DNA of 52,241 nucleotides from Sulfurovum sp. (GTDB taxonomy: Bacteria; Campylobacterota; Campylobacteria; Campylobacterales; Sulfurovaceae), in the NCBI GenBank assembly GCA_027062365.1, contig JAMOTK010000060.1:1-52241 (forward strand), written 5' to 3'. Positions 22,719 through 25,811 of the stretch are shown in pieces. The stretch's first letter is position 1; every line of letters begins with the position of its first letter. The translations under genes and the position numbers were made by a program. The notes beneath the pieces are model-generated. The model did not search any database. It was not told the DNA's origin and saw nothing but the letters and a program-made list of their open reading frames with translations.

Positions 22719-23888
22719 GTGAATATTCATGAGTATCAAGCGAAACAAATATTCCAAAAGTATGGTGTTCCAACACCTAGAGGTATTATTGCCAATACAC
22801 CAGCTCAAGCAGTAACCAATGCACAAGAGTTAGGTGGTAGTGTTTGGGTTGTAAAAGCCCAAATTCATGCAGGGGGTAGAGGACTTGGTGGTGGTGTAAA
22901 ACTAGCAAAGTCTATCGATGAAGTAAGAGAATTGGCTACAGAAATCCTAGGTATGACACTTGTCACACACCAAACAGGATCAGAGGGTAAATTGGTTCAA
23001 AAAGTGTATATTGAAGAGGGTGCAGCTATCGTTGATGAGCTTTATCTTTCTGTGGTACTTGACCGTGCTGCTGAGATGCCAATCATCATGGCTTCAACTG
23101 AAGGTGGTATGGATATTGAAACCGTAGCACACGATACACCAGAAAAAATCATCAAAATTGCTGTAGACCCTGCTTATGGTTTCCAAGGGTATCATGGTAG
23201 AGAATTGGTCTTTGGTCTTGGTATTACAGACAAAGCTGAGCAAAAAAAGATGATTGCTTTTGCCTCTAAAGTTTATAAGCTTTATATGGAAAATGATGCA
23301 GAAATGATTGAAATTAATCCTCTTATCAAAACAGAAAGTGGCGATTTTATGGCACTTGATGGTAAAATGGGCTTTGATGATTCTGCTCTAGGTAGACACC
23401 CAGATATTGAAGATATGAGAGATATTTCAGAAGAAGATTCAGATGAAAGAGAAGCTTCACAATATGGTCTTTCTTACATCGCTCTTGATGGTGAGATTGG
23501 TTGTATGGTCAATGGTGCTGGACTTGCCATGGGTACAATGGATACGATTAATTATATGGGTGGAACACCTGCGAACTTCCTCGATGTGGGTGGTTCAGCA
23601 AATGCTGAAACTGTGGCAAAAGGATTTGAAATTATCCTTAAAAATCCAAAAGTTAAAGCTATCTTCGTAAATATCTTTGGTGGAATTGTAAGATGTGATA
23701 GAATTGCCAATGGTATCATTGAAGCGACTAAAATTACAGATGTAAACGTACCAGTTATCGTAAGACTTGATGGTACAAATGCACCAGAAGCTGCAGAAAT
23801 TTTGAAAAATGCAAACATTGCTAACTTAATTGTAGGTGATGATTTGGGTGATGGTGCAGCTAAAGCCGTAGCAGCAGCAAAAGGTTAA
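22719..23888 (+). CDS. sucC: Succinyl-CoA synthetase, beta subunit (GTG start)
   Basis: The ATP-grasp subunit of succinyl-CoA synthetase, which makes or cleaves succinyl-CoA. The 389-residue protein begins MNIHEYQAKQIFQKYGVPTP, with the ATP-grasp features WVVKAQIHAGGRG, EINPL, ALDGKMGFDDSA and the IFGGIVRCD loop. The GTG start is supported by AAAGGAG 7 nt upstream. The partner sucD is not adjacent as usual: it begins 1053 bp downstream, after two inserted genes. Confidence 0.95.
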   Translation: MNIHEYQAKQIFQKYGVPTPRGIIANTPAQAVTNAQELGGSVWVVKAQIHAGGRGLGGGVKLAKSIDEVRELATEILGMTLVTHQTGSEGKLVQKVYIEEGAAIVDELYLSVVLDRAAEMPIIMASTEGGMDIETVAHDTPEKIIKIAVDPAYGFQGYHGRELVFGLGITDKAEQKKMIAFASKVYKLYMENDAEMIEINPLIKTESGDFMALDGKMGFDDSALGRHPDIEDMRDISEEDSDEREASQYGLSYIALDGEIGCMVNGAGLAMGTMDTINYMGGTPANFLDVGGSANAETVAKGFEIILKNPKVKAIFVNIFGGIVRCDRIANGIIEATKITDVNVPVIVRLDGTNAPEAAEILKNANIANLIVGDDLGDGAAKAVAAAKG

Positions 23889-23894
23889 TAGATA

Positions 23895-24524
23895 GTGGAA
23901 AACCTATCATTTGGAACTATTACACCTCAAGAATTGTTGAAACATTTTGAGATTATACAAGAGAATAAAAAATTTAATTTAGATACTGAAGAGATTAAAA
24001 TCTCTTCAGAACTTAAAAATAGATTTTTAGCTCTTATTTCAGAGCATGAATTTGAATTAGATAGGTATCTTGAAGAAGAGTTAAAAATGCTATTTATAGC
24101 ACCTATCATCAATTCTATCTCTTTTTCGTGTAATGGAGTCAAACCTTGGTTTGAAAGAGCTTTGCGTTTTGACTTTGAGAATATCTCTTTATCGGGTAAA
24201 ACAGATTTTATGTTAGCCAAAGGTCAGATAGAGCCTAAAAACCCTTTTTTCTTTATTCAAGAGTATAAAAAGAGTATTCCAAATGGAGACCCCAAATGGC
24301 AAGTTGTCTCAGAAATGATAGTGGCTATTGAATCGTCTGATAGTAAAGAAATGATAGGTTCATATATATTTGGTCAATATTGGCATTTTGTAATGCTTAA
24401 AAAAGACCCTAATAGTAAATATACTTTAGCTATTTCACAAAGTTATGATAGCTTAAAGATTGATGACTTAGTGTTAATTTATAAAAACCTACAGGCTGTA
24501 AAAAGTTTGTACTGTAAAGGATAA
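23895..24524 (+). CDS. PD-(D/E)XK nuclease-like protein inserted between sucC and sucD (GTG start)
   Basis: I do not recognise a named family for this 209-residue protein. Its middle fits a PD-(D/E)XK core: Asp104 in GKTDFMLAKG, then a hydrophobic strand FFFIQEYKK with Glu123-x-Lys125, then Gln136 in PKWQVVSEMI at the start of the following helix. This is the D / E-x-K / Q arrangement of HsdR-like and related nucleases. The N-terminal part (residues 5-70) is predicted helical and charged. The start is GTG at 23895, with AAAGG 11 nt upstream; the first in-frame ATG would remove much of the protein. It is 6 bp after sucC and 3 bp before the EVE-like gene. Nuclease activity is inferred from the motif only. 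Confidence 0.55.
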   Translation: MENLSFGTITPQELLKHFEIIQENKKFNLDTEEIKISSELKNRFLALISEHEFELDRYLEEELKMLFIAPIINSISFSCNGVKPWFERALRFDFENISLSGKTDFMLAKGQIEPKNPFFFIQEYKKSIPNGDPKWQVVSEMIVAIESSDSKEMIGSYIFGQYWHFVMLKKDPNSKYTLAISQSYDSLKIDDLVLIYKNLQAVKSLYCKG

Positions 24525-24527
24525 TAT

Positions 24528-24932
24528 ATGAAAATATGGAGTGTAAATACTAATATTAGTAATTTTAACAATAATGAACTGGGTGCTACAATTGTAATAA
24601 AACAGAATAGAATAGTCACTTGGTATAGGAATGATTTAAATCAAATTAATAAAGGTGATTTAATTTTATCATACAACAATAATAAGACAATTATTGCTGT
24701 GGGGTATGCTTTATCAGATGTTCAAAATTATGATAATGAACCCCATCAACAAAAGACAGATGAACAATGGATTTATGTAGATTGGATATTGAAATGTCAA
24801 GATAATCCTATTAAGTTAAATGATATTGAAAATGACTTTAAGGTAGCAATGTTCAATGGTATAGTATTTAGTTGGGCAGATCATATTGATACATTTAAAT
24901 TATTAGCTGAAATAGGCAAAAGAAAAATATAA
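24528..24932 (+). CDS. EVE/PUA-like domain protein inserted between sucC and sucD
   Basis: The 134-residue protein starts KIWSVNTNIS and has INKGDLILSYNNNKTIIAVGYAL (39-61) followed by DEQWIYVDW (78-86). This matches the layout of EVE/YTH-PUA folds, where a GDLVxxY strand is followed by a VVGI strand and a WxxV(D) strand. EVE domains bind modified nucleobases and are often joined to nucleases in modification-dependent restriction (family knowledge). The partner gene 3 bp upstream is nuclease-like. G+C is very low: 29 of 120 bases at 24541-24660, against 28 of 60 in sucD at 25201-25260, pointing to acquired DNA. AAAGGATAATAT precedes the ATG. Modified-base binding is inference. Confidence 0.55.
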   Translation: MKIWSVNTNISNFNNNELGATIVIKQNRIVTWYRNDLNQINKGDLILSYNNNKTIIAVGYALSDVQNYDNEPHQQKTDEQWIYVDWILKCQDNPIKLNDIENDFKVAMFNGIVFSWADHIDTFKLLAEIGKRKI

Positions 24933-24941
24933 GGAAAATAA

Positions 24942-25811
24942 ATGAGTATTTTAGTAAATAAAGATACAAAAGTAATCGTTCAAGGATTTACAGGTAAAGA
25001 GGGTTCTTTTCATGCTGAACAATGTATGGATTATGGAACACAAATCGTAGGTGGAGTAACTCCTGGTAAAGGGGGGCAAACGCATCTTGGTAAGCCTGTA
25101 TTTAATACAGTAAAAGATGCTGTAGCTATGACAGATGCTACGGTTTCTATGATTTTTGTACCACCAGCATTTGTGGCTGATGCCGTAATGGAAGCAGCTA
25201 CTGCAGGGATTGAACTTGCTGTGATTATCACAGAAGGTGCACCTGTTAGAGACATGCAAGCTGCTAAAGCTTGTGCGACTAAAAATGGTATGAAAACCAT
25301 CGGACCAAACTGTCCAGGTGTGATTACTGCTGATGAGTGTAAAATCGGTATTATGCCAGGTATGATTTTCAAAAAAGGAAATGTTGGACTTATTTCTAAA
25401 TCTGGAACATTGACGTATGAAGGTGCAAACCAAGTATGTAATGAAGGATTTGGTATTACAACAGCTGTAGGGATTGGTGGAGACCCAATTATTGGTCTTT
25501 CTTATATAGAACTACTTCAAATGTTCCAAGAAGACCCTGAAACGGAAGCAATTGTCATGATTGGTGAAATCGGTGGAGACCTCGAAATCCAAGCAGCAAG
25601 ATATATCAAAGAAAATATAACCAAGCCAGTAGTAGCCTTTATCGCAGGTCAAACAGCACCAGAAGGAAAGAGAATGGGTCACGCAGGGGCAATTATCTCT
25701 GGAAGTGCAGGTACAGCCAAAGAAAAAATGGATGCACTTGAAGCAGTCGGCGTAAAAGTTGTTATTTCTCCAGCTGAAATTGGAAAAGCAGTAAAAGAAG
25801 TACTTTCGTAA
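24942..25811 (+). CDS. sucD: Succinyl-CoA synthetase, alpha subunit
   Basis: The CoA-binding, phosphohistidine-bearing subunit. In the 289 residues the Rossmann CoA-binding region is [17 protein letters not shown], followed by [20 protein letters not shown] and the phosphorylated His247 in RMGHAGAI. Length and motifs are normal, so the separation from sucC has not damaged it. The gene is 9 bp after the EVE-like gene with AAGGAAAATAA as ribosome binding site. I see no separate promoter in the 9-bp gap, so it probably depends on transcription through the inserted pair. Confidence 0.95.

Follow-up and report, generated by a model that had tools for sequence, protein, structure and literature searches.

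The window analysed here, i.e., the whole stretch of 52,241 nucleotides from Sulfurovum sp. (contig JAMOTK010000060.1), contains sucC and sucD, the genes of the two subunits of succinyl-CoA synthetase, and these are separated by two small genes designated A and B (Table 1). As a preliminary description of this DNA had stated, the four genes follow one another head to tail on one strand in the order sucC-A-B-sucD with gaps of 6, 3, and 9 bp, and the inserted genes are rich in A+T; indeed, the GC content is 29.7% in A and 25.9% in B versus 39.1% in sucC and 40.1% in sucD. The identities of sucC and sucD are established by NCBIfam/TIGRFAM scores far over the family cut-offs, and a purine-rich stretch (AAAGG or AAGGA) can be read in the sequence before the start of each gene. 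Terminator-like sites were looked for in the sense direction, and none was found. Terminal repeats or a transposase bounding A-B were also considered and rejected, as no repeats bracket A-B within positions 23800-25010 of the window. When compared with the empty junction of a near relative (G438), both ends of the insert carry a possible 4-bp AAGG duplication, which is too short to count.

Table 1. Features at the sucC-sucD junction of the window
Feature	Position	Strand	Basis
sucC, succinyl-CoA synthetase beta subunit, upstream host gene	22719..23888	+	NCBIfam NF001913, 558 bits
Gene A, 209-aa protein with predicted PD-(D/E)XK nuclease fold, GTG start	23895..24524	+	AlphaFold model, structure matches, PADLOC, residue conservation
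3' end of gene A (IYKNLQAVKSLYC), signature of the sucCD lineage	24477..24526	+	50 bp, DNA 90% identical to the G046 copy
Gene B, EVE/PUA-like protein (134 aa) that optionally accompanies A	24528..24932	+	weak Pfam EVE match, McrB-domain kinship, L158 remnant
sucD, succinyl-CoA synthetase alpha subunit, downstream host gene	24942..25811	+	NCBIfam NF004230, 447 bits

Gene A gave no match to Pfam and NCBIfam models, and a sequence search of solved structures with either A or B was also without a match. The PADLOC model PD_DExK (PDLC01472) recognized A with an E-value of 9e-8 and, furthermore, all 63 of the 63 aligned members of its family (best, 9.7e-13); this model describes a CRISPR-associated accessory, whereas no CRISPR or cas gene was seen at the sucCD locus. 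We then modelled A with AlphaFold from the 63 sequences (pLDDT 93.4, pTM 0.90), and in a structure comparison (VIA) that covers the chains ranked by Foldseek, the model matched the nucleases BpuSI (Z 10.6 over 147 residues), DrdV (9.8), HsdR (8.5), and TT1808 (7.1), the last of which we take to be Uma2-like. The residues D104, E123-x-K125, and Q136, from which the preliminary description had proposed a PD-(D/E)XK nuclease, are correctly assigned and conserved across the family: among the 63 members, E60 is present in 61, D104 in 61, E123 in 62, K125 in 63, and Q136 in 58. In terms of the modelled fold as well as the catalytic D...(D/E)-x-K motif, therefore, A is shown to belong to the PD-(D/E)XK superfamily and is a predicted nuclease, in agreement with that proposal. 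The dN/dS ratio ranged from 0.08 to 0.43 across ten pairs of related A-family genes, which indicates that the proteins are under purifying selection. Like Rpn (PF12784/PF04754) and Uma2-type genes, A represents a multi-copy and widely dispersed group of PD-(D/E)XK genes, but it differs from them in having no Pfam match to these families, in its N-terminal region, and in its C-terminal IYKNLxxVK signature. Indeed, neither A nor its relatives matched the Rpn / PDDEXK_2 (PF12784) model, which did detect the Rpn genes adjoining some of those relatives.

The top structural matches of A in the same comparison were not nucleases but mL37 and mL65, two proteins of the animal mitochondrial ribosome, with Z scores of 16.1 and 14.0, respectively; the matched entries name these chains 5 and s, which presumably correspond to mL37 and mL65, respectively. 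The alignment to mL37 includes 204 of the 209 residues with an rmsd of 3.3, and the two proteins span 204-205 of the 209 residues, so that both matches are longer and higher than that of every solved nuclease among the matches listed; mL37 and mL65 also cover the N-terminal part of A, which BpuSI and DrdV do not. The sequence identity to A is, however, just 7-9%, and a profile of the 63 A members searched against solved structures at E<=10 retrieved no mitoribosomal chain. Both mL37 and mL65 have been described as repurposed endonucleases (PMC8998825), and the literature that we found states no bacterial source for them. Unlike A, they are structural parts of the mitochondrial ribosome. The A family may thus include the nearest bacterial kin of mL37 and mL65 and could offer a bacterial reference point for their origin; given that no similarity in sequence was found and that the comparison is limited to solved structures, we regard the family as candidate kin and not as a demonstrated ancestor.

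The GDL, VGY, and W..VD strings on which gene B had been called EVE-like are all present in its product. The Pfam EVE model (PF01878) gives B an E-value of 0.011 and 16.1 bits against a cut-off of 23, and B is hence called EVE-like here and not a member of the EVE family. The likeness itself is upheld by sequence kinship: the best matches of B in 397 genomes of the phylum are EVE-like domains inside McrB-like GTPases, one of which (in L246) is followed by McrC, and relatives of this B-like McrB domain also occur in AAA ATPases on plasmids. A model of B from its single sequence reached a pLDDT of just 38.5, too low to define a PUA-like beta-barrel fold. Apart from the window, a free-standing B was found in none of the 397 phylum genomes, phages, plasmids, or viral contigs. 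We noticed, nonetheless, that in the L158 locus A and sucD are separated by a remnant of B with an internal deletion (L158:345-431), a reading frame of 28 codons which starts with MKIWAVNTNI (MKIWSVNTNI in B) and ends like B; none of 5000 shuffles reached its score. The idea that B is unique to the window was accordingly abandoned. The remnant implies that B stood beside A in an ancestor shared by the window and L158 and has since been lost or deleted, and B is an old but dispensable, optional companion of A.

Gene A was found at the sucC-sucD junction in eight loci, namely, those of the window, L155, L156, L157, L158, L162, L175, and L072. The nearest kin of the window's A are those of L155, L156, L157, and L158, which are 53-65% identical to it and all lie at this junction; in L158, the contig ends inside A, and the sucD side alone is visible. 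The remaining copies, namely, those of L162 (from Thiovulum), L175, and L072 (from G046, a genome of another family), likewise occupy the junction. A search across the host's taxonomic family detected A at sucCD in six of 175 genomes and re-found L155-L158 and L175. For comparison, we sampled 109 sucC-sucD loci without A, of which 29 are from the same genus and 80 are junctions drawn from the phylum as a whole; G003 and G438, the nearest relatives, have an empty junction with a gap of 3 bp or less. The interruption of sucCD in the window is therefore not a chance event, since seven other genomes hold A exactly there, as opposed to the 109 loci without it.

When 126 A proteins were placed on a tree, the copies from the eight sucCD loci required two label changes as compared with 7.9 after shuffling, and they may share a single origin. 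Their hosts behave differently on the tree of sucC (115 rows), where the presence of A requires six changes, at least five of which are forced by supported branches, versus 6.8 in the shuffled labels; that is, the A-bearing hosts are not clustered. The copies of L162 and L175, for example, are sisters (100/99) although their hosts are distant. Between the repeated entry of A into the sucCD junction and an ancient presence followed by very many losses, we favour the former. The sucC of L156, a metagenome-derived genome, is split by a frameshift and forms a long branch on the tree. When the flanks of A-bearing genomes were compared for co-conversion, no clear signal emerged: only the first 20 codons of sucD leaned towards other A-bearing genomes, and this tendency was slight (mean +0.017).

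In L155 and L157, one base is common to the stop codon of sucC and the start codon of A (UAAUGA); the A gene of L155, in addition, overlaps sucD by 4 bp. The copy in G046 (L072:2481-3398) has a 100-aa N-terminal extension and has lost the E-x-K motif (LNQYTSS at this place); nevertheless, over its final 50 bp the DNA identity to the 3' end of the window's A is 90%. Two A-less loci, L087 (G278) and L089 (G255), have inserts of 420-440 bp in the same slot, which we considered as decayed copies of A; these inserts are, however, genes for a 23S rRNA intervening-sequence protein (IVP; PF05635, E=1e-37) with inverted-repeat-like ends. Given that unrelated genes have been inserted here, the junction may simply be permissive.

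Beyond the sucCD junction, A is one member of a multi-copy family that is unnamed and widely scattered among bacteria, and the notion of a gene specific to sucCD was hence dismissed. A-like genes are present in six of 60 genomes of relatives, with up to 51 per genome and some of them in tandem. When 85,000 species were scanned, 291 relatives emerged, and the best 80 among them come from Campylobacterota, Methylococcaceae, Bacteroidales, Electrothrix, Chloroflexota, and giant sulfur bacteria (Thiomargarita, Parabeggiatoa, Marithrix, and Achromatium). Many other members have a coiled-coil-like N-terminal extension, which the window's A lacks. No kin of A was found in viral contigs or in plasmids; a phage or plasmid origin was considered and set aside, as kin of A and B were absent from viral contigs, those of B from phage and plasmid records, and those of A from plasmids. 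The largest number, 51 matches, was recorded in G046, where A genes form tandem arrays (L025, L026, and L027), and in G030, 11 A genes are found within 33 kb (L022-L023), several of them with stop codons; the C-terminal half is the more conserved one in the arrays of both genomes, suggesting gene conversion.

Among 41 copies of this family in Campylobacterota with two readable flanks, 36 are flanked on either side by genes of the same strand, 27 have such neighbours within 60 bp on each side, and 21 overlap with a same-strand neighbour; in other phyla, the corresponding numbers are 35, 11, and 5 of 68. When similar copies at different sites are compared, the DNA similarity usually begins about 10-30 bp ahead of the start codon and ends 0-40 bp beyond the stop codon, and the mobile unit thus looks like the gene together with its ribosome-binding site. 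Near-identical copies elsewhere seldom share their flanks, as far as the best 80 of the 291 loci and a few genomes are concerned; one lineage at one site describes the sucCD copies but not most of the other copies sampled. In two genomes, furthermore, an A gene overlaps the start of an Rpn-family (PF12784) nuclease gene (L028:5214-6781 and L023:17608-18862).

Taken together, the most fitting description of the system is that of a mobile gene of the PD-(D/E)XK type, which recurs at one operon junction and is optionally accompanied by an EVE-like gene; A resembles a mobile or homing-type nuclease more closely than it does an integral restriction system. It is quite possible, if a little short of probable, that A is a horizontally moving homing-like nuclease gene lodged in the sucC-sucD junction. 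Homing genes are expected to show occupied and empty alleles of one site among relatives, as observed here at eight versus 109 loci, and a gene tree at odds with that of the hosts, as is also observed, with the same site apparently reached repeatedly. As a homing-like gene, A would be a single-gene mobile element at the junction, living on the transcript and ribosome-binding sites of its host. The predicted nuclease would cut or nick sucC/sucD alleles without A, and repair from an A-bearing copy would then install A; an occupied junction would no longer have an intact target site. The EVE-like B, as a putative base-binding protein, would be an accessory gained in the lineage of the window and L158 and readily lost, and it might aim A at modified nucleic acid or restrain it there. 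With its loss of E-x-K, the degenerate G046 copy could represent the usual end of a homing cycle.

A precedent is mobE of T-even phages, a homing nuclease gene between nrdA and nrdB with a UAAUGA overlap (PMC2988022). Like A, mobE is a nuclease gene inserted between the genes of two subunits of one enzyme, with empty alleles and scattered hosts, and its start overlaps the upstream stop as UAAUGA in the same manner as in L155 and L157. On the other hand, mobE encodes an HNH nuclease of phages, whereas A is a chromosomal gene of the PD-(D/E)XK type with putative site-specific cleavage and homing; also, other members of the A family lack a fixed site and occur in arrays, unlike classical homing genes. 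A literature search for free-standing homing genes of the PD-(D/E)XK type found nothing. The homing-like reading is tempered by the fact that most A-family members are not site-bound and that the junction accepts unrelated inserts. In its most specific form, this reading makes A a homing-type endonuclease with the PD-(D/E)XK fold that resides in cellular chromosomes and is aimed at the conserved sucC/sucD junction, as the chromosomal equivalent of mobE in nrdA/nrdB; an EVE-like base reader would be its optional partner, and A would be part of a large unnamed family of single-gene nuclease elements at operon junctions of bacteria from sulfidic habitats. This form is offered tentatively and is rather doubtful.

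The preliminary description had interpreted A and B as a possible minimal, constitutively expressed modification-sensing system for restriction or RNA surveillance, and this interpretation is partly supported. In a two-protein, modification-dependent (type IV-like) restriction system, B would flip out and read a base that is modified in the DNA or RNA of a phage, whereupon A would cut; the PD-(D/E)XK fold of A, the kinship of B with the domains of McrB GTPases, with McrC following in L246, and the position of B beside A in the common ancestor of the window and L158 are all consistent with this. Stand-alone EVE genes adjoining restriction systems have, furthermore, been described, as have PD-(D/E)XK nucleases with a fused EVE-like domain (DCD, YTH-like) (PMC7641849). 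Such a pair would share the combination of a nuclease and an EVE/PUA-type domain with EVE-McrB/McrC and EVE-HNH (VcaM4I) modification-dependent restriction but would differ in having no GTPase and in the separation of reader and nuclease into two genes, and B is missing from most A loci. Indeed, an EVE-like open reading frame was found at none of the 99 A-bearing loci searched except the window, and six of the eight sucCD copies of A are without a trace of B; homologues of the two genes are thus almost never found together outside this locus, an outcome that the preliminary description itself had named as refuting the pair. The rarity of B speaks against restriction as a general function of A, the fold of B is putative, A and B are not among defence genes at this locus, and the host already has two McrC homologues (G000:C63:1503-2444 and G000:C38:33325-34194). 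We consider this restriction pair unlikely.

Alternatively, A might be a multi-copy PD-(D/E)XK gene with its own role in defence, toxicity, or recombination, as in Rpn or Uma2, that spreads by ordinary horizontal transfer and illegitimate insertion; tight operon junctions would then be harmless spots, and the shared position at sucCD would reflect transfer of a sucC-A-sucD block by homologous recombination in the flanks. The high copy number with tandem arrays, the scarcity of shared sites among most copies, the overlaps with Rpn-family genes in two genomes, and the IVP inserts at the same junction all fit this possibility, and published work on Rpn reports both the promotion of recombination and anti-phage toxin-antitoxin genes (PMC5350276, PMC10327210). 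By itself, however, it leaves the close kinship of the sucCD copies in scattered hosts unexplained, and no clear donor tract for a block transfer was detected in sucC or sucD; as a whole, it appears improbable, albeit not strongly so. It is highly improbable, finally, that the sucCD operon has recruited A as a regulator through translation coupling or mRNA processing between the two subunit genes, perhaps acting on RNA like mL37 and mL65, which bind rRNA. While regulation is favoured by the overlap of start and stop codons seen in L155 and L157, by the fact that the top structural matches are mitoribosomal proteins that bind RNA, and by the persistence of the G046 copy without catalytic residues, A is found in six of the 175 family genomes with very close relatives lacking it, and family members elsewhere adjoin unrelated genes.

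If the homing-like reading of A is true, homing-like nuclease genes, which are well known in phages, also lodge in central-metabolism operons of free-living bacteria, and the same junction has been reached in different genera by precise gene-sized units that are coupled to the translation of host genes. Neither Pfam nor NCBIfam, moreover, has a model that covers this large family with up to 51 copies per genome. We noticed a second copy of A in the genome of the window (G000:C50:66816-67430; L024:8781-9539), which has a coiled-coil-like N terminus and is flanked by a gene for a 1243-aa protein and a gene reading like uppP. Partner genes are again the neighbours at L073:5125-5787 (L198), where an A gene overlaps its surroundings between what appear to be two subunit genes of an efflux pump.
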